In this document: positions 1-59,123 of the stretch, piece by piece | Position numbering within the stretch: the first letter of the stretch is position 1 | Layout: every line of letters begins with the position of its first letter | Virus record (IMG/VR): IMGVR_UViG_3300032665_001045 | Location: 1 to 64,000 of that record | Strand: one strand, 5' to 3' | From: a virus | Length of the DNA: 64,000 bases | Position numbers and translations under genes: made by a program | Notes under the pieces: model-generated | Database searches by the model: none | What the model saw: the letters and a program-made list of their open reading frames with translations, nothing else | What the model was told of the DNA's origin: nothing

Positions 1-719
1 TCGACACGGCTAAGATTAGTGTTATACCTTGCGTATACATTTTTACCATCTCCTAGTTCAACAATGCGCTTCATGTAGCGCCAGTGTTGTTCGTACATTA
101 AGGGCTCTCCGCCTACCCAATATACTTCTTCTACTTGATGTTGTTCTACAGCATTTGCAAACTCTTGTTCAATTTGATTATCTTGAAACTCGGTTATTTG
201 TTCTTTGATTTCGGGTTTCATCCAATTATTCTTTGGATTCGTCCAATCGATCATATTGTGAGTGCGCTGTTCTGACTCCCAGGCACTAGATAACATATCC
301 CCACACATACGACATTTGAAATTACATAAGTTAGAGAATCGATAATCCCAACTAACAGGACGAAGTGTAGTAGTTCCGTCTGGTTGAGTATTCTCTAGTA
401 TACTCTTATACTTATGACCAAAGAGGCTATCAAAATAACTACGGTAAACTGAAGTGTTCAATAATTTATCATTACATACTTCACATTCTGGTAATGTTTC
501 ACCTGCCATCATGCGCACACGAACTGACTTCATATGGTCGCTATTCCAATGTTTTTCTAGGGTAATAGGAATATACTTGCCCGTGCCTGATTTAGTATCT
601 ATATACTGTTCAAAATTCTGTGCAGGCTCACGACTGGCACAGCACATGCGGCGTTCTGTTTGCGGACTTAGATATGTATGCACCCAAGGTGCTAAACACA
701 AGGTCTTAGGTTTATTCAT
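1..719 (-). CDS. Radical-SAM protein with N-terminal SPASM-like cysteines (3' end outside window)
   Basis: My own translation from the ATG at 719 stays open to the window edge (239 codons), so the C-terminus is missing. It begins with a Cys-rich segment (C8, C26-C27, C79, C82) resembling the auxiliary-cluster (SPASM/twitch) part of radical-SAM enzymes. The AdoMet-cluster motif CNFKCRMC follows at residues 132-139, and GGEP (203-206) is the usual SAM-binding motif. The family cleaves S-adenosylmethionine at a 4Fe-4S cluster to start radical chemistry on a peptide, sugar or other substrate; the substrate here is unknown. The start overlaps the stop of the preceding radical-SAM gene by 8 nt, so the two are translationally coupled. 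It is the last visible gene of the minus-strand operon starting near 9700. Confidence 0.85.
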   Translation of the reverse strand, partial: MNKPKTLCLAPWVHTYLSPQTERRMCCASREPAQNFEQYIDTKSGTGKYIPITLEKHWNSDHMKSVRVRMMAGETLPECEVCNDKLLNTSVYRSYFDSLFGHKYKSILENTQPDGTTTLRPVSWDYRFSNLCNFKCRMCGDMLSSAWESEQRTHNMIDWTNPKNNWMKPEIKEQITEFQDNQIEQEFANAVEQHQVEEVYWVGGEPLMYEQHWRYMKRIVELGDGKNVYARYNTNLSRV

Positions 720-3243
720 AGCCCATTGCACGTGCTATTTCTGGATGAGTAGTTAAAAAACTCTGTCCTCTATATTCATCAGTCTGACGCATCTTTTTTA
801 AAAAACTTTGGCCATCACTACCGCTTCCATTTTCGATAAATTGTATAATTTTATCAATCTCTACACGATGCTTTTCAATGAAAGTAGCTGCATGTAATCG
901 ATTAACAACTAATTCTTTAGCCGCTGGTGTTAGTTGACTAATACACATATCATTAGGATCATGCAGCATATTAAAATAAACATAGTCAAACGACTGTGTA
1001 TTGACCCAATCACATAATTCAGGTAGGTAGTAAACATTCTGAATGTTTACAGTCATACATACTTGCGTCACAATTTGTTTTGAACGTAGGAGATTAAACT
1101 TGCTAATATTCTCAGTTACTTCTGCCCACTTAGCACCATATCGCTCATATTCAAATCGATCACCTACATTGTCAATACTAACTGCAATTTCTACACGACT
1201 AAATTTCTTCCATAGTTCAACTTCATCAGCTGTAGGATACACTGTACCATTTGTATTATAGTGAATGTCAATCTTTTGACTGTATTCTTGTTCAACTGCA
1301 AATCGCAATAATTTAAAATGTTCTTCAATTAAAAATGGTTCACCACCTGTAAATTCAAAATATTTGATATTAGGTAGCAGTGTTTTTAAATTATCCCAGA
1401 ATATATCATTATTGCGTGGCCAAGCACCATCTTGTAAGAATGTATATGCTAAATGACTTTTACGATCGTAGAATTCTACACCAGCATCTTTATGATTTTT
1501 TTCTTCGTAATCAACTTCTTCTTTAGCCCACTTACTACTTGACCAACTACCGCAGATGCGACATTTAAGATTACAGATATTACCTAATTTAAGATCAATA
1601 AACCACAGTTGATCTGGTTTAACATTATTCCAATCAACAATTGTATAATACTTCTTTAGCCGTATGCGACTATTGATACGTTTACTGGTTCGACCACTTG
1701 CTTCTTCATCCCAACAACGATTACATGTACTAGGTTTCTTACCGTCTAGAAACTCCTGACGTAAATTCTGCATATATTCGCTTTGGTAGATTTCACCTAG
1801 GCTATTTTCTGTTAGTTTGTATACTGTACCATCAGGTTTAGTAATTTCATCTTTAGCCAAACAACACGGGCGTGCTGTGCCAACAGGACTGGCTTCTATG
1901 CTGACCCAAGGTAACATACAAATATTTTCGTGCGTTTTATTAATACCTAAGTAATTACGAAGTTCAGCATACTCTGGAAATACATCTTCAAATTTCTCTT
2001 TACGATGTTCATCAGTCTGATCATTAATTTTAAAGAATTCGCCTAATAAATGACTCTTATCATCTTGATACATAAATGAGATAAGACCCTTATACCCACT
2101 TACTGCTCGTTGTAAGTGATCCAATGGTTCTAGCCAAGCAATATGCTCTTCGAGACGTTGTTTAATACGATCCTTAAATTGAATAGGTAATACATCAACA
2201 CGGTCACGCTCTGGTCCTTGTAGAATATTAACATTCCAGTCCATTGGCTTGATTAATCCTAGATCAGCCCATTCTCTATGGAATTCACTAACATGCCAGG
2301 CATTGTAAATACTCACAGTAGCACTAATATAAAAATCTACATTAGGACAAATTTCTATCATTTTACGACGATTCTCTACAGTTTCTGCCCAATCTTGTCC
2401 TTTGCGCATATATTCACCACGCAAATAACTGTCATCTAAACTTGCACCTACACCAACACTGTCAAATAATTTCCAATAGTCAAATACATACTTGTCTTTA
2501 AGTTTCATATGGCTAAAGTTTGTATTGTATATTAAACGTACATGAAACATCTTACGCTTAACTAACTCTTCTAAGATGCGATAGTGTTCTTCCATAATCA
2601 ATGGCTCACCACCGGCAAAATAGATTTGTTCTAAATAAGGAATATGTTCTTGCATCTGCTCCCACATATCTTCTTTGTCTCGACCAGCATACATGATCTG
2701 TGGATGATTTAGTTTGCCAAACAGTTTTGTTTCTTCCTGATACCAACTTGAACTAAACAAACTACCACAGGTACGGCAACTAAAGTTACATAGGTTACTA
2801 AAACGTATATCGTAGTAGCGTAATTTAAAGTCCTCAAATGTACCATCTTCTTTGGTTTGATCAACTAATTTAATATGATGCCCAAAGTTTTTATTAGCAC
2901 TGTTGCGCATACTAAAGAAACCATTAGATTCTTGTTCGTAGCATTTACTACACTCCTTACACGATTTATCATTGAGCATATTGGTACGCATGCGACGATA
3001 AGCAACACCATTCCATACTTCCTTCATAGTATTTTTTCTGAAATTACCTACAGGCAATTGGGAATCTGCCAGACAGCAAGGATAAGCACGACCGTCTGGA
3101 AATCCATGTAGATGTATCCAAGGAATCATACAGAATGTTTTACTTTCAGTTAATTTATATTTTTGATCTGTTGTTAGTTGATCTTCATTTATATAAACAG
3201 GGTTGAGAGTATTATAATTGTGATTCTTATGTTGTTTGCTCAT
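712..3243 (-). CDS. Tandem (double) radical-SAM protein
   Basis: This 843-residue protein holds two complete radical-SAM units in line. Unit 1 has SPASM-like cysteines (C38, C56-C57, C95, C98, C101), the cluster motif CNFSCRTC at 152-159 and GGEP at 211-214. Unit 2 repeats the plan from about residue 440: CMLPW, CC at 460-461, the CNRC pair near 507-510, CNLKCRIC at 557-564 and a second GGEP. Each unit is close in length to a free-standing family member, so this looks like an in-frame duplication or fusion of two enzymes. All cluster cysteines are kept in both halves, so both may be active. It overlaps its upstream neighbour by 4 nt (ATGA) and its downstream neighbour by 8 nt. The substrate is not evident. 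Confidence 0.88.
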   Translation of the reverse strand: MSKQHKNHNYNTLNPVYINEDQLTTDQKYKLTESKTFCMIPWIHLHGFPDGRAYPCCLADSQLPVGNFRKNTMKEVWNGVAYRRMRTNMLNDKSCKECSKCYEQESNGFFSMRNSANKNFGHHIKLVDQTKEDGTFEDFKLRYYDIRFSNLCNFSCRTCGSLFSSSWYQEETKLFGKLNHPQIMYAGRDKEDMWEQMQEHIPYLEQIYFAGGEPLIMEEHYRILEELVKRKMFHVRLIYNTNFSHMKLKDKYVFDYWKLFDSVGVGASLDDSYLRGEYMRKGQDWAETVENRRKMIEICPNVDFYISATVSIYNAWHVSEFHREWADLGLIKPMDWNVNILQGPERDRVDVLPIQFKDRIKQRLEEHIAWLEPLDHLQRAVSGYKGLISFMYQDDKSHLLGEFFKINDQTDEHRKEKFEDVFPEYAELRNYLGINKTHENICMLPWVSIEASPVGTARPCCLAKDEITKPDGTVYKLTENSLGEIYQSEYMQNLRQEFLDGKKPSTCNRCWDEEASGRTSKRINSRIRLKKYYTIVDWNNVKPDQLWFIDLKLGNICNLKCRICGSWSSSKWAKEEVDYEEKNHKDAGVEFYDRKSHLAYTFLQDGAWPRNNDIFWDNLKTLLPNIKYFEFTGGEPFLIEEHFKLLRFAVEQEYSQKIDIHYNTNGTVYPTADEVELWKKFSRVEIAVSIDNVGDRFEYERYGAKWAEVTENISKFNLLRSKQIVTQVCMTVNIQNVYYLPELCDWVNTQSFDYVYFNMLHDPNDMCISQLTPAAKELVVNRLHAATFIEKHRVEIDKIIQFIENGSGSDGQSFLKKMRQTDEYRGQSFLTTHPEIARAMGYE

Positions 3244-4616
3244 AGTGTATCGTACCAGTCTGCTAATTGTGGAAATGTATATTTAAAGTCTAGACCACGT
3301 CTCTGGTCGTATTGTTGATAAAAATTCTTAAAGTCACGTTGTAAGATCTCACGTGACAAGGCACCGCTATGTGGACTATCTACAGTTTCGAGATAGTCGA
3401 CTAATCTAGTCACTTGATTGCCTTCAAATTCATGTATGATCTGAGTATTGGCCATATGGAATCTGGTCAATTCTCCTGCGGCTTGTTGTCTAAACTCTAC
3501 AGGTAAGATTAGTGGGCTTTGGAAACTAGGAAAGCGTAAGATGTTTAGGCTAAAGTTAATTGAATCCTTGCTATACTTCTGTTTAAGATTAACTATGCTC
3601 CACAGGAATTCAGTAAGACTCAATAAGCATAAGGCATTGATGGTACACATAACATGTAGGCCGCGCAGTTTGCCACTATCCAATAGATAACTAACATTGC
3701 TAACCCATTGATTCCAATCCAAACCATCACGAATATATACCGCATGTCTACCCATGCTTTCATTGCTTGTATATATATCAAGGTCAATACCTTCACATGC
3801 TTCCAACAATCTATCAATTTTATCACGATCGAATCCTAAGTTACTGTTTAATGCAAGACGTGTCTTGCTCTGACCTTTGTGCTCTTTAAACCAGTCGAGG
3901 AGTTTCCACGTGTAACCCGACATAAGCGGTTCACCCCCTGTGATGCGTAGCTCTTTGAGTGTTCTGTGTAGGTCTGATTCCCACCAACGGAAGAAGGCCT
4001 CAACGTAAGGATTAACTTCAGTGATAGTATACAGTTGACTACTATTATGCTCATGAGTAAAATGGTTGCGGCCATCGGATACCAAGTCGGTATATGGTCC
4101 ATTACGATGGATATCCTTAACCCAACTGCTACTGAAAGCAGGATTACAGTAGCTACAGGCAAACTGACAAGTGCGATCAAAAGCAATTTCCAAGGTTTGT
4201 AAGTTGACGTCCTGTTCCGGAGGTGTATTAAAAGCTTCATTTAAGTCTTGATCCTCATATATAACAGTTTTATAAACACGATCACTGATAGGCACAGGCA
4301 CATCTACCCCAGCATACTTAGGATCCTTGTACATATCTTCAATCTTCCAGCAGTATTCACATCCACTAGGGCGTTCGCCACGTTGCATCATACGACGCTC
4401 TTCTTTCTTCTGCGGTGTATTATGTATAGCACCAGGATTAATTAAGATAGCATCACGGTCAATGGCATGTGGTAGTGGATGATGACAACTTGTAGTCTGT
4501 CCTGATCCTAACCATATAGTAGCATTGTACCATTTGGCTGCACAGAAGCTTTCTGACTTAATGTCAATCACTCTACGCTTATATTGTAAGTCTGATTCGT
4601 TAGGCTTTTTCGGCAT
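3240..4616 (-). CDS. Radical-SAM protein with N-terminal SPASM-like region
   Basis: This 458-residue protein has cluster motif CQFACSYC at 150-157 and GGEP at 227-230. The N-terminal segment carries C25, C44 and the CEYC pair at 86-89, which could hold an auxiliary 4Fe-4S cluster. It is a paralogue of the next gene upstream: both share the CHHP/CYHP and CxYCW segments, the spacing to the cluster motif, and an NPYVEAF stretch just before GGEP. The start lies inside the end of that gene (17-nt overlap) and the stop overlaps the tandem radical-SAM gene by 4 nt. The chemistry is inferred from the family; the substrate is unknown. Confidence 0.87.
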   Translation of the reverse strand: MPKKPNESDLQYKRRVIDIKSESFCAAKWYNATIWLGSGQTTSCHHPLPHAIDRDAILINPGAIHNTPQKKEERRMMQRGERPSGCEYCWKIEDMYKDPKYAGVDVPVPISDRVYKTVIYEDQDLNEAFNTPPEQDVNLQTLEIAFDRTCQFACSYCNPAFSSSWVKDIHRNGPYTDLVSDGRNHFTHEHNSSQLYTITEVNPYVEAFFRWWESDLHRTLKELRITGGEPLMSGYTWKLLDWFKEHKGQSKTRLALNSNLGFDRDKIDRLLEACEGIDLDIYTSNESMGRHAVYIRDGLDWNQWVSNVSYLLDSGKLRGLHVMCTINALCLLSLTEFLWSIVNLKQKYSKDSINFSLNILRFPSFQSPLILPVEFRQQAAGELTRFHMANTQIIHEFEGNQVTRLVDYLETVDSPHSGALSREILQRDFKNFYQQYDQRRGLDFKYTFPQLADWYDTL

Positions 4617-5994
4617 GATATTTACATTCGTTCCAAAATTCTTTCATTTGTGGGAAAGCGGCTAAGAAGCCAGGATTTCCAGTTTGCATATATTCATCGC
4701 GGCGGTCATATTCACTGAAGAAACGATAAAAGTCTGCACGCTGTTCTTCAAGATATTTAGGTTCCTTAGGTTCTTTCATCCAAAGTAAGTTACGTTCCAT
4801 ACGCTGTATTTCATAGTCTTTAAATCCTACAAAACTATCTTCAGGCATGACATTTTCTTTCATATATGCTATTACGTCTTCTAACACAGTATAATAACTT
4901 GCTGGAAGTATTTGTAGACTTTGCCATGTAGGACTACGCAGCAATGGCGTGTCAAACCAAACACGTTGATAGGTTGTACTATGTAACTTGCGTAATTCTA
5001 AAATATGCTCTAATAAGCGTTTCAATCCAAGTATGTTTAAGTTACTCATAGTAATAATATAAGTTAAACTGTTGCGATATGGAATCTGTGTAAGGAAACG
5101 GTGTACATAAGTGTTTACGCGATGCGGCCCCATGCCTCTGCGTATGTAGGCAGACTGTACAGGATCACCACTATCTAAACTAACATACTGCATGAAGTGT
5201 TCTATGCGCTCACCTTTGCATAGTTGTTTAACTTTGTCCATATACTTGTCAAACAGTTCTGGTTCTACACTAAAGTTACTGGTAACGTCTACATGTAGGT
5301 CACTTTTAGGTAGTTCCAGAATATAGTCAAACACACGGTACGTGTTCTTATCCATAAGTGGCTCTCCGCCTGTCATACGGAAGTGTTTAAGACTACCATA
5401 TAAACTAGGCCACCAAGACCAAAATGCTTCTACATAAGGATTGTGTTCACGTACTGGAATAGGCTTACGTCTACCTTCAAAGTGTTCTGGCGCATTGTGC
5501 GGAGTACTTGTAGGATAAGCACCAAACTTAGCAATGTCTTTGCCCCATTCGGTTGAGTATTGTGGACTGCAATAACTACATGCTAGATTACAGCCATGAC
5601 TAAAGTTTACTTCTACATAACTAGGAGTAGCATCTTCAAGGCCTGTGCTGTTTACAATAGTGTCAAAGTGTTCTGCGGCCCATGGCTCGCCACTACGATA
5701 ATGACGGTCACTTAACTGTCCGTTATCTTCAGCTGACCAGCAATAACTACATTCACTTGGGCGTTCTTGTTTAAGCATGATAACACGTTGCTGTTTTTTA
5801 TACGCTGTGTTGTGTAAGGCACTAGGATTGGCCAGCAATGGTTGTGGATCTATTTCATGTAGGGGTGGATGGTAGCAACTATTAGTCATGCCTGTTGTTA
5901 GGTGTAGACTAACCTGTTGCCATTTAGCCAAGCAGAGTGCAGGACCTAGTTTGTCCTTCATTGACTCTGCGCTCGACATGAAATCACTGCTCAT
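4600..5994 (-). CDS. Radical-SAM protein with N-terminal SPASM-like region
   Basis: This 464-residue paralogue of the neighbouring 458-residue protein has N-terminal cysteines C21, C40 and CSYC at 82-85, cluster motif CNLACSYC at 135-142 and GGEP at 209-212. As in the other members of this operon, the putative auxiliary-cluster region precedes the radical-SAM core rather than following it, which reverses the usual SPASM order. It starts with ATG and overlaps the upstream 2OG-oxygenase-like gene by 11 nt. Iron-sulfur radical enzymology is strongly supported by motifs; the reaction is not predictable from sequence alone. Confidence 0.87.
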   Translation of the reverse strand: MSSDFMSSAESMKDKLGPALCLAKWQQVSLHLTTGMTNSCYHPPLHEIDPQPLLANPSALHNTAYKKQQRVIMLKQERPSECSYCWSAEDNGQLSDRHYRSGEPWAAEHFDTIVNSTGLEDATPSYVEVNFSHGCNLACSYCSPQYSTEWGKDIAKFGAYPTSTPHNAPEHFEGRRKPIPVREHNPYVEAFWSWWPSLYGSLKHFRMTGGEPLMDKNTYRVFDYILELPKSDLHVDVTSNFSVEPELFDKYMDKVKQLCKGERIEHFMQYVSLDSGDPVQSAYIRRGMGPHRVNTYVHRFLTQIPYRNSLTYIITMSNLNILGLKRLLEHILELRKLHSTTYQRVWFDTPLLRSPTWQSLQILPASYYTVLEDVIAYMKENVMPEDSFVGFKDYEIQRMERNLLWMKEPKEPKYLEEQRADFYRFFSEYDRRDEYMQTGNPGFLAAFPQMKEFWNECKYHAEKA

Positions 5995-56717: not shown

Positions 56718-57032
56718 CTAATATTTCTCGTTGTAATCTAGTGTATCGGTACGAGGAATATTTTTAACTAACTGTAAAATTTTATTAGCATCATTTCTAT
56801 CAAAGTTCGGGTGTCTAAAGTGCCACTGTTTTTTACTTTCTGCCCTATCTAAACAATAAAGTAAATCCATCTTAACATCAAAACTTTTAGTAGTTAAAAG
56901 CAGTGCATTCATTTCTTGTATATCTAAAAAGTATTCTACATATTTCTTAGTAGCGTTAACACTGTTATAGTTAGTAGCACCACCTCTGAAAGTAGGTTTA
57001 CTTTTTTTATATTTTGCAGTATACCAAGTCAT
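56718..57032 (-). CDS. Hypothetical protein, 104 aa (early-type promoter)
   Basis: I do not recognise the family. It is Lys/Asn/Tyr-rich and basic at its N-terminus (TWYTAKYKKSKPTFRGG), with no cysteine cluster or membrane segment. AAGGAG lies 8 nt before the ATG. A consensus sigma70 promoter lies 29-57 nt upstream, so it should be made in quantity from host polymerase early in infection. A host-takeover role would fit but is a guess. Confidence 0.7.
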   Translation of the reverse strand: MTWYTAKYKKSKPTFRGGATNYNSVNATKKYVEYFLDIQEMNALLLTTKSFDVKMDLLYCLDRAESKKQWHFRHPNFDRNDANKILQLVKNIPRTDTLDYNEKY

Positions 57033-57060: not shown

Positions 57061-57089
57061 ATTATACTATAGTTTAGTTAATTTGTCAA
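57061..57089 (-). promoter_or_regulatory. Perfect consensus sigma70 promoter (TTGACA-17-TATAAT)
   Basis: -35 at 57089-57084 and -10 at 57066-57061 on the minus strand, with a 17-nt spacer and a start near 57054. The -35 lies inside the last codons of the 57-residue gene. Confidence 0.85.
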
Positions 57090-57251
57090 GTCTGCATACT
57101 TTAACCTAAAATAAGTTTCAGTTATGCCGGGTTCTATAATATCTATTGTGTAGCCACGAGAACTTTTATGAAATGGACCGTGCTTGACGTTATTATCTTT
57201 GATGATCTGTTGAAACTCACGTAGTTCATTGTGTTTAATAGTTATCGTCAT
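57078..57251 (-). CDS. Hypothetical protein, 57 aa
   Basis: I found this gene by reading the gap: ATG 57251 to TAA 57078. It overlaps the end of the upstream gene by 17 nt, in another frame. The sequence (TITIKHNELREFQQIIKD, then RGYTIDIIEPGITETYFRLK) reads like a small folded alpha/beta protein. No function can be assigned. Its last codons encode the -35 element of the next promoter. Confidence 0.6.
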   Translation of the reverse strand: MTITIKHNELREFQQIIKDNNVKHGPFHKSSRGYTIDIIEPGITETYFRLKYADLTN

Positions 57252-57801
57252 CATTGTCTAGATCCTCGTCTTCATACTCCCAAATTTCTTGACCGCTGGC
57301 ATAGTCAAAGTAATATTTTTCGTTGGGTACTAACAAGCGGAATTGACCAGCATACTTAAGAGCAGCCAAGAGTGCTTCATTCTTGTCTGTTAGGTCACAG
57401 ATAATAAAGCTACTGCCACAGCCACCATGAACATGTTTAATCTCGCTGTGTTGAAATTCATCTGCTAATAAAGCATTATGAAAATTTCCACGATTGCCGG
57501 CAATGATACGATTAGCAATGAATGGGTGTGGTAAACGTTTATCTAATAGACCTAACTTGCTGAGTGTAGCATTGTTATCGCGGTCAATACTTAGCTTACA
57601 GTCTTTAAACTTGATACTACCTTTGGTACTTGGATTGTCTGGAGTTTCTTTAGTAGTCCAGGGAATTTCTGCTGATACATGATTTACATAAAATGTAATA
57701 CCATGACTTTTGACACACCACATAGGAACACTTGGATCCTCTAGGTGTTTTTTGTTAAAATGAAAAACTACGTCTTTACAACTATATTCAATCTACAACA
57801 T
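57235..57801 (-). CDS. Conserved-type hypothetical protein with in-frame amber at codon 3
   Basis: The ordinary ORF starts at ATG 57723 (162 aa), but no good Shine-Dalgarno precedes it. Upstream, the same frame is open for 23 more codons that read like protein (KDVVFHFNKKHLEDPSVP). It reaches ATG TTG TAG ATT GAA at 57801, with AAGGAG correctly placed before that ATG. The natural start therefore gives Met-Leu-amber-Ile-Glu, and 185 further residues. A tRNA with a CUA anticodon heads the same transcript. The acidic C-terminus ends DDDDNY. Alternatives are an ATT start at 57792, reinitiation at 57723, or a sequencing error. No enzymatic motif is seen. Confidence 0.6.
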
Positions 57802-57805
57802 GTTA

Positions 57806-57997
57806 TTACTCTCCTTGTTTATCAAGATACTTTCTTGTATCTGCTCTGGTATTTATACCGTGTAACTCCGCTGTTACTAAACTAGACAAATCCTGTGGCG
57901 AACAAACTTCTTCAAATCCTACTCCTAACTTCTTAGCACGTGGTACTACCTCGTTAAGTAAAATTTTTGCTGTAAGTTGAGCGTATTGTTTATCCAT
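57806..57997 (-). CDS. Hypothetical protein, 63 aa
   Basis: This small helical protein (KQYAQLTAKILLNEVVPRAK, then LHGINTRADTRKYLDKQGE) has no recognised family. AAAAGGA lies just before its ATG, immediately after the tRNA CCA end. Its last codons contain the AAGGAG that serves the amber-containing gene downstream, so translation of the two is linked. Confidence 0.65.
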   Translation of the reverse strand: MDKQYAQLTAKILLNEVVPRAKKLGVGFEEVCSPQDLSSLVTAELHGINTRADTRKYLDKQGE

Positions 57998-58007
57998 ATA
58001 ATCCTTT

Positions 58008-58081
58008 TGGTGCAGTTGACGGGAGTCAAACCCGTTACCAGGAGTTTTAGAGGCTCTTGCTATTCGATCAGCTTCAACTGC
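58008..58081 (-). tRNA. tRNA with CUA anticodon (putative amber suppressor)
   Basis: The 74-nt sequence folds as a tRNA: a perfect 7-bp acceptor (GCAGTTG/CAACTGC), discriminator A and encoded CCA, and a perfect 5-bp T stem (ACGGG/CCCGT) with loop TTTGACT. The variable loop has 5 nt. The anticodon loop is CTCTAAA with U33 in place, giving anticodon CUA (58050-58048), which would read UAG. Oddities: the D loop is only 6 nt and lacks GG, the anticodon stem has only three firm pairs, and T-loop C56 is U. It may be degenerate. A strong sigma70 promoter begins transcription about 3 nt before it. Confidence 0.65.
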
Positions 58082-58090
58082 AATATGTTA

Positions 58091-58119
58091 ATAATACACT
58101 GATCTAAGCTGGTTGTCAA
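58091..58119 (-). promoter_or_regulatory. Strong sigma70 promoter (TTGACA-17-TATTAT) of the tRNA operon
   Basis: -35 at 58119-58114, 17-nt spacer, -10 at 58096-58091, start near 58084. The -35 sits in the short palindrome GGTTGTCAACC. Confidence 0.85.
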
Positions 58120-58220: not shown

Positions 58221-59123
58221 ATGGGACGTCCTCTAAAAAGAAAATATTTTGGTGTTAGTAACGTTAATGACGGCCAATCATACAGCGGTACTGGTGGTGA
58301 AAGCGTAGTTAGCTTTACTATTACTAACGTTGGTAGTAACTATTCACAAGGTGTAACATTAAGTGTAGCACCAAGTCCAATTGGTGGTACTACAGCATTA
58401 GATAGTTACACAGAAGCTGCTAACGGTTCTATCATGACAGTCACAGTGTCAAATGGTGGTACAGGTTACGATACTGCACCAGCAGTTACAATCAACAAAC
58501 CAGGTAACGTTGCTACTACAGCTACAAGTTACTATCCAGCCAGCAATGTACTTACAGTAGGTACTACGACAGGTTTATATATTGGTATGGCGGCTAACGT
58601 AGGATTTAGTTCAACTGCACGCATTACTACAATTTATACAGCTAACTCAAATGTTGTATTAAGTGGTTCAAACACTGCGGCATTAAGTGGTACACCAATT
58701 AGCTTCGGTGATATCGGTTCTGGTGCAGCAATTACTGCGGTATTAGCAAGTCCAAACACTACAGCTAACACAATACAAGCTAACGCATGGATTACTGGTG
58801 GCACGATTGGTAAAATTGCTGACATTGTTAAACAAGAAGGCGCACGTCGTTATAAAGTAGTTAATGCAGATGGTACAGCATTAGTTAACCTATATGGTAA
58901 TGCGGCTATAGTAGCAGCAGGTGGTCCAATTGGTCCAGGTCAAATGACTATTACAGCAACAGATTCAGCTGGTGGTACTTATTTCGTTGAAAAACTATAT
59001 GATCGTACAGCTACCTTGAATCCGATAACTGGTACACAATTTACTCACTATCAAAAAGTAAAATGGGTATTCAATGGTCCGGCTGTTCTTAACACAAGCG
59101 TGACTTTAGCACAAAACAACTAA
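58221..59123 (+). CDS. Virion structural protein, 300 aa
   Basis: It begins GRPLKRKYFGVSNV, an opening I recognise in structural proteins of T4-like marine phages. Two copies of the VGSNYSQGVTL / GGTGYDTAPAVTI motif near residues 37-90 match those in the 4,067-residue tail protein, so they share a module. The C-terminal region (EGARRYKVVNADGTALVNLY, TDSAGGTYFVEKLYDR) is beta-rich. It has a strong AAGGAG site, a structured leader and its own terminator, suggesting high expression. It may be a head or fibre decoration protein. Confidence 0.65.
   Translation: MGRPLKRKYFGVSNVNDGQSYSGTGGESVVSFTITNVGSNYSQGVTLSVAPSPIGGTTALDSYTEAANGSIMTVTVSNGGTGYDTAPAVTINKPGNVATTATSYYPASNVLTVGTTTGLYIGMAANVGFSSTARITTIYTANSNVVLSGSNTAALSGTPISFGDIGSGAAITAVLASPNTTANTIQANAWITGGTIGKIADIVKQEGARRYKVVNADGTALVNLYGNAAIVAAGGPIGPGQMTITATDSAGGTYFVEKLYDRTATLNPITGTQFTHYQKVKWVFNGPAVLNTSVTLAQNN

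Follow-up and report, generated by a model that had tools for sequence, protein, structure and literature searches.

A start-proximal amber codon and a linked suppressor tRNA as a candidate translational gate in phages where TAG still ends other genes

Why should a phage that keeps the standard genetic code carry a tRNA that reads a stop codon? Stenotrophomonas phage Summit (PMC9022506), XacN1 (PMC5852040) and Atu_ph07 (PMC6102473) are standard-code phages with suppressor tRNAs for which no targets were identified. The authors of the Summit and XacN1 studies sought read-through mainly at gene ends and found no target (PMC9022506, PMC5852040). The locus described here raises the same question. 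It lies in a window of 64 kb, the whole stretch of DNA analysed, which is part of a 67.5 kb viral contig. The structural genes of the window are presumably T4-type. A first-pass annotation of this DNA had proposed that an amber-reading tRNA is co-transcribed with a gene carrying TAG near its start, and that the full-length product requires read-through of UAG by this tRNA. We now consider it likely, with a probability of roughly 0.87, that the two elements form a translational AND gate that depends on the suppressor tRNA, in phages whose other genes can still end in TAG.

A promoter, a tRNA and an interrupted gene

The unit lies wholly on the minus strand. A sigma70-type promoter (58091..58119, minus strand; TTGACA-17-TATTAT) matches the consensus at 11 of 12 positions and probably serves both the tRNA and the interrupted, or locked, gene. 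It is followed by a putative amber-suppressor tRNA (58008..58081, minus strand; Rfam RF00005) with a CUA anticodon, the discriminator A73 and an encoded CCA. G1 of the tRNA lies 9 nt past the -10 box and ∼2–3 nt past the expected transcription start, in good agreement with the earlier placement of the tRNA about 3 nt into a strong sigma70 transcript. Between the tRNA and the locked gene sits a small ORF of 63 amino acids (57806..57997, minus strand), which has no Pfam or PHROG match above the cut-off and none in the phage collection; its 3′ end overlaps the Shine–Dalgarno (SD) region of the locked gene. The gene order proposed for the co-transcribed unit stands, with the corrections that a single gene intervenes and that everything is on the minus strand. 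A search for a terminator between the promoter, the tRNA, the small gene and the locked gene found none.

The locked gene (57235..57801, minus strand) has 189 codons including start, amber and stop, an extent supported by translation and conservation. Its SD sequence, AAGGAG (57811..57816, minus strand), precedes an ATG (57799..57801, minus strand) that is the only SD-preceded in-frame start, as had been noted, and both elements are kept in homologues. The leader reads ATG-TTG-TAG-ATT-GAA at 57801. The in-frame amber at codon 3 (57793..57795, minus strand) constitutes the lock and is kept in homologous loci, and the frame then remains open for 185 codons, to 57235. No in-frame ATG, GTG or TTG with an SD occurs at 57792, and 57723 (the M of PMW) is inside the conserved domain; homologues retain ATG...TAG and do not start at the equivalent of either position. 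A downstream ORF of 58 amino acids (57078..57254, minus strand) overlaps the 3′ end of the locked gene, to which it is possibly translationally coupled; no Pfam or PHROG family was found for it.

Other features of the window deserve mention in their own right. A perfect sigma70 promoter, TTGACA-17-TATAAT (57089-57061, minus strand), precedes a 104-aa ORF (56718-57032). On the plus strand, a freshwater-2 RNA motif (RF02980, 58145-58223) is divergent from the suppressor tRNA and stands ahead of a gene at 58221; several of the phages have RF02980 next to their suppressor tRNA, and the motif also occurs at L006:3271-3337 and L229:5815-5895. At 712-5994 (minus strand), three long ORFs are clustered that show, by eye only, CxxxCxxC-like motifs of radical-SAM/SPASM type.

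ARAGORN made no call on the window tRNA, whereas the Rfam tRNA model RF00005 (gathering score 29) gave it 45.8 bits, bearing out the earlier description of a CUA tRNA with a CCA end. The tRNA body spans 58081-58011 and the encoded CCA 58010-58008, and the 7-nt anticodon loop, CUCUAAA, includes U33. An odd D arm had been remarked upon. A19 and U56 replace G19-C56, in four relatives as in the window (whose row in our table of tRNA positions is offset by one base at the 5′ end). The odd D arm is partly a tertiary change, and a double change of this kind is what retention of the 19-56 pair would lead one to expect.

The anticodon stem is weak, as first described, with mismatches at pairs 27-43 and 31-39, and this weakness is typical of the tRNA family. 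Pair 31-39 is mismatched, mostly as C.A or A.C, in 43 of 48 suppressor tRNAs compared with 2 of 50 tRNAs of other kinds in these loci (Fisher p = 1.6e-19; the mismatch was recorded in suppressor tRNAs of loci L063-L142). It may tune suppression, and the window tRNA, with a 3-bp anticodon stem, could be a poor suppressor. In a related study, tRNAs with 4-bp anticodon stems are reported to favour stop read-through, the top pair 27-43 being the one concerned (PMC13092985). Those tRNAs have a shortened anticodon stem in common with the phage suppressors, but in the phage tRNAs it is mainly the loop-closing pair 31-39 (A.C or C.A) that is affected rather than 27-43.

Position 73 is A in nearly all suppressor tRNAs of related loci. 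By established identity rules, U35, A73 and a short variable arm point to LysRS as the enzyme most likely to charge the suppressor tRNA, and with blast relatives that are mostly tRNA-Lys, charging with lysine is probable. Many tRNA-Lys are likewise among the named blast relatives of the corresponding tRNA of Rhizobium phage RHph_I1_18. A tRNA-Pyl architecture was considered and rejected: the variable loop is ∼5 nt (not 3) and the anticodon stem 3–5 bp (not 6), and the 'tRNA-Pyl' annotation derives from the anticodon alone.

Conservation of the early amber and its tRNA

The first eight relatives of the locked gene, 59–100% identical, all read SD-ATG-NNN-TAG-ATT. A profile search then found 385 viral relatives, of which 80 were kept, and none in bacterial genomes; 78 of the 79 relatives examined had an early in-frame TAG. 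As a guard against selection bias, a second sample of loci was drawn on the downstream motif FHFNKKHLE alone, and the outcome was the same. When distinct phage loci with this gene family (hereafter HFNKKH) were pooled, 111 of 118 had an in-frame TAG at codons 2–10. The stop is TAG in 111/111 locked loci and never TAA or TGA. Its modal position is codon 3, an SD precedes the ATG in 107 of the locked loci, and TAG is followed by A in 106 of the 111 and by G in the remaining 5. In E. coli, an A after UAG generally makes for weak termination and favours suppression.

Mere inheritance would not account for this pattern. Within this family, 59% of pairwise comparisons at 4-fold degenerate sites show a difference, near saturation, and invariant residues are encoded by several different codons. 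Since TAG is retained despite such divergence, it is under selection as a stop codon, and its retention, judged against these sites, is far beyond chance. Sequencing error as the source of the TAG was ruled out by its recurrence in >100 independent contigs and in sequenced isolates; isolates with an early TAG in either of the two locked families described here are RHph_I1_18, CBB, GAP32, BF, ME3, Arash and Phosso.

The codon after TAG is Ile (ATT, ATC or ATA) in most loci, including 60 of 60 distinct loci in one set. AUU is a known rare start codon (infC). For part of the family, one could accordingly read ATG-NNN-TAG as a two-codon minigene, with the protein starting at the adjacent AUU by reinitiation or at an infC-like, IF3-sensitive start. 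We regard this as very improbable. Reinitiation would tolerate TAA or TGA, which the locked loci never use. The Ile codon does not follow TAG in RHph_I1_18, L286 or L298, nor in several genes of the second family; the codon found there is AAC in RHph_I1_18, AAT or AAC in the second family and AAG or AAA in other HFNKKH loci, none of which is a start. Moreover, Atu_ph07 pairs a TGA with a UCA tRNA, and a non-AUG start would leave the linked tRNA without a reason.

The tRNA is indeed linked. In most loci with flanking sequence, a CUA tRNA on the gene's own strand is detected by ARAGORN; with few exceptions it lies 0.1–4.5 kb upstream, and it is often the sole tRNA there. Some locked loci have no CUA tRNA by ARAGORN inside the fetched stretch, and several ARAGORN-negative loci, including those of the window type, were rescued by Rfam. 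Among the new loci drawn on FHFNKKHLE, 34 of 45 have a CUA tRNA by ARAGORN alone. By contrast, ARAGORN found 0 CUA tRNAs in 839 kb of control sequence, made up of 80 loci around the capsid gene. The only one of these loci with the gene reads ATG-TCA-TAG-ATT, with TAG at codon 3, and has a weak CUA tRNA. The -10 box sits 8 nt ahead of the suppressor tRNA in most related loci, and promoter matches of at least 11/12 occur in 19 of 49 related loci, compared with 0.06 expected from shuffles. Transcription therefore probably starts at the tRNA itself. The conserved ATG...TAG and the accompanying CUA tRNA support the original proposal that the full-length product needs UAG read-through by this tRNA.

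Further RNA elements were seen on these contigs. Permuted beta-type tmRNA genes occur at L072:169-495, L112:10791-11259 and L344:8287-8682, on phage contigs where the locked gene is present as well. A phage contig of 353 kb has an apparent ochre-reading tRNA (anticodon TTA) at L424:8241-8313, and GOLLD RNA is found inside the phage tRNA arrays of L313 and L338.

A suppressor tRNA, together with TAG stops somewhat rarer than in controls, is also what whole-genome reassignment of TAG (code 15) would produce, with this gene as one among many. The difference in TAG stops (6% in related loci, 13% in control loci) is only suggestive, as gene content differs. We give reassignment hardly any credence: TAG still ends 7 of 43 genes in the window and, among ORFs of related loci, 52 of 869. 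When 1.64 Mb were scanned, the only further family with a conserved early TAG was PTH2, the second family to which we now turn.

A second locked family and the unlocked members

Cultured isolates carry the lock on two unrelated genes. In Rhizobium phage RHph_I1_18, an unannotated 82-codon homologue of the window gene reads MSEFM-TAG-NESCREVIFHF..., with TAG at codon 6, and an annotated tRNA-Pyl(cta) comes immediately after it. Sinorhizobium phage Phosso and Agrobacterium phage Atu_ph07 have an HFNKKH domain that is unlocked, with a gene for PTH2 (peptidyl-tRNA hydrolase 2) two genes upstream that is annotated from an internal Met. The Phosso PTH2 leader is ATG-AAG-TAT-TAG, and Phosso has two CUA tRNAs; the Atu_ph07 leader is ATG-ATT-GGC-GAA-CAC-TTT-TGA, and Atu_ph07 has a UCA tRNA. 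As read from the two genomes, stop and suppressor anticodon match in each, and the early-TGA PTH2 gene is a candidate target of the Atu_ph07 suppressor tRNA.

PTH2-like genes with TAG at codon 3–4 are also found in Serratia phage BF, Erwinia phages, Pectobacterium phage CBB, Cronobacter phage GAP32, XbC2, Kaldavass, Arash and Acinetobacter phage ME3, and each of these genomes has a nearby CUA tRNA. Phosso, Atu_ph07, CBB, GAP32, BF, Arash and ME3 are jumbo phages. The match to Pfam PF01981 (cut-off 23) is clear for Phosso (72.9 bits, 3e-20) and Atu_ph07 (73.9 bits, 2e-20). The BF gene is called 'PTH2-like' because it scores just 17.2 bits (0.006), below the cut-off, and the compact PTH2-like proteins are without the GK motif. 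In sequence, the PTH2-like family is unrelated to the HFNKKH family. No early stop was found in the PTH2 genes of XacN1, SCTP-2, RAS14, RaK2 or Hallingskeid, and no close relatives of Phosso PTH2 among viral contigs. A search of the whole Summit genome gave no convincing early-amber gene, so its suppressor tRNA is still unexplained; nor was one found within 16 kb in phiN3.

The HFNKKH gene is unlocked in 7 of 118 loci. In four of these seven (L087, L291, L296 and L327), the TAG lock is on a PTH2-like gene a short way upstream, which follows a CUA tRNA (of only 22 bits in L296). L314 has a lock on each of the two genes (ATG-ACA-CAT-TAG-ATT and ATG-ATG-TAG-ATT), and a tRNA with the loop CTCTAAA lies 1.8 kb downstream. 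Because the lock is found on one or the other gene, and on both in L314, the HFNKKH and PTH2-like genes probably form one functional module. The L278/L299 and L287 types are unlocked with no locked partner seen, and CUA tRNAs are present in the L299 and L287 contigs. In unlocked L299 (∼30.5 kb), the words ATG-TTG-TAG-ATT persist upstream, followed by a terminator-like hairpin, and are a possible relic.

The distribution of ambers also bears on whether the arrangement has any regulatory value. By constructive neutral evolution or tRNA addiction, the tRNA could have come first and the gene later become dependent on it by drift; selfish pairs of a tRNA and a linked gene would presumably persist in the same way. 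Neutral ambers, however, would be expected in various genes and at various positions, and single changes would turn them back into sense codons. The amber is instead restricted to codons 2–10, is never sense in locked members and occupies the same place in two unrelated families. A neutral dependence is thus unlikely, if less so than a non-AUG start.

A translational gate and what it may control

The AND gate would work as follows. Sigma70 transcription would start almost at the 5′ end of the CUA tRNA and continue into the gene with TAG at codon 3. Without the tRNA, host RF1 would terminate at UAG and leave a 2-residue peptide from the window gene (1–9 residues across the family); a leaky transcript would yield no protein, because ribosomes would stop at once on UAG. 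Once the tRNA had accumulated and been charged, probably with lysine, it would compete with RF1 at UAG and the full protein would be made. Because one promoter would drive both, output would depend on tRNA and message together. With the promoter shared, the arrangement would amount to a coherent feed-forward AND gate, by which expression would be delayed and leak removed. The same gate could equally be read as a sensor of the balance between suppression and termination.

The locked protein has a beta-rich N-terminal domain of ∼80 aa (FHFNKKHLED...TKETPDN..TKGS) and a C-terminal ferredoxin-like or RRM-like domain with an acidic tail (AlphaFold2 pLDDT 83.9). PDB sequence and Foldseek searches found nothing significant among solved structures: the C-terminal domain had weak matches of RRM/ACT-like type, and a few phage proteins without names also came up. 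No Pfam or PHROG family or recognised domain was found. An idea formed by eye, that the C-terminal half is itself a PTH2, was rejected: hhalign gave a probability of 0.3%, and none of 50 HFNKKH family members had a PTH2 match. Our best guess is a role in tRNA or ribosome handling, proposed because the PTH2-like partner shares the functional module. A stress role is a second possibility, suggested by neighbours that include AhpC in 37 of 61 loci and AhpD in 36 of 61 (a peroxiredoxin system, for example in L068 and L078), and GroES elsewhere.

A narrower version of the AND gate makes the sensor its point: the locus would measure suppressor tRNA against RF1, and the product and its PTH2-like partner would act on peptidyl-tRNA or terminating ribosomes to restore the balance. 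The alternative lock carrier, PTH2-like and in the same gene run, speaks for such a sensor, as do the permuted tmRNA genes in L072, L112 and L344 and the precedent of prfB, a known stop-gated translation-factor gene that measures RF2 (PMC12421855). It is weakened by the HFNKKH protein, with no recognised domain and a C-terminal half that is not PTH2 by profile comparison, by the compact PTH2-like proteins that lack the GK motif, and by neighbours that instead include ahpC, mostly with ahpD, in 37 of 61 loci. We hold the sensor to be a tentative reading, somewhat short of an even chance.

For the AND gate as a whole, there are instructive parallels. In the synthetic 'leak dampener', one inducer drives a suppressor tRNA and an amber gene; the design worked in E. 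coli, cut leak strongly and in one version placed the amber right after the initiator Met (PMC7969014). The circuit is the same, but the dampener was engineered, whereas the phage version is natural, conserved and apparently co-transcribed. In prfB, which encodes RF2, an in-frame UGA near the start gates full-length translation and is widely conserved (PMC12421855). That gate uses a +1 frameshift and responds to RF2 level, while in the phage lock the frame is unchanged and the stop would be read by a tRNA; a prfB-type frameshift was rejected for the window gene, where ATG, TAG and downstream codons are all in one frame. In code-15 crAss-like and Lak phages, a phage CUA tRNA reads UAG and is proposed to time late or lytic genes (PMC10879173). 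Those phages share the phage-encoded CUA tRNA with the loci described here, but they reassign TAG in many genes; here TAG still works as a stop, and the tRNA is linked with a single codon close to the start, in one gene or module. In the open-access papers searched, no earlier account was found of a stop codon close to the start that is paired with a phage suppressor tRNA. Suppressor-tRNA control of phage genes is a known hypothesis for recoded phages; the single-gene lock in standard-code phages would be a new form of it.

Taken more broadly, we lean towards an AND gate that is widespread, built from UAG/CUA or UGA/UCA pairs, that arose independently on two unrelated genes, controls a tRNA/ribosome effector module (HFNKKH and/or PTH2-like) and would explain many orphan suppressor tRNAs. 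The lock offers a specific, testable answer to a puzzle in several genome papers, namely the purpose of suppressor tRNAs in standard-code phages. It also has a practical side: because the stop lies at the gene's beginning, annotation pipelines miss or truncate such genes, as in RHph_I1_18, BF, CBB, GAP32 and Arash. Cultured phages such as GAP32, CBB, ME3 and Atu_ph07 can serve as models for the lock. Finally, these loci suggest that stop-codon choice can act as a natural gene-level switch, of the same form as a synthetic anti-leak design.
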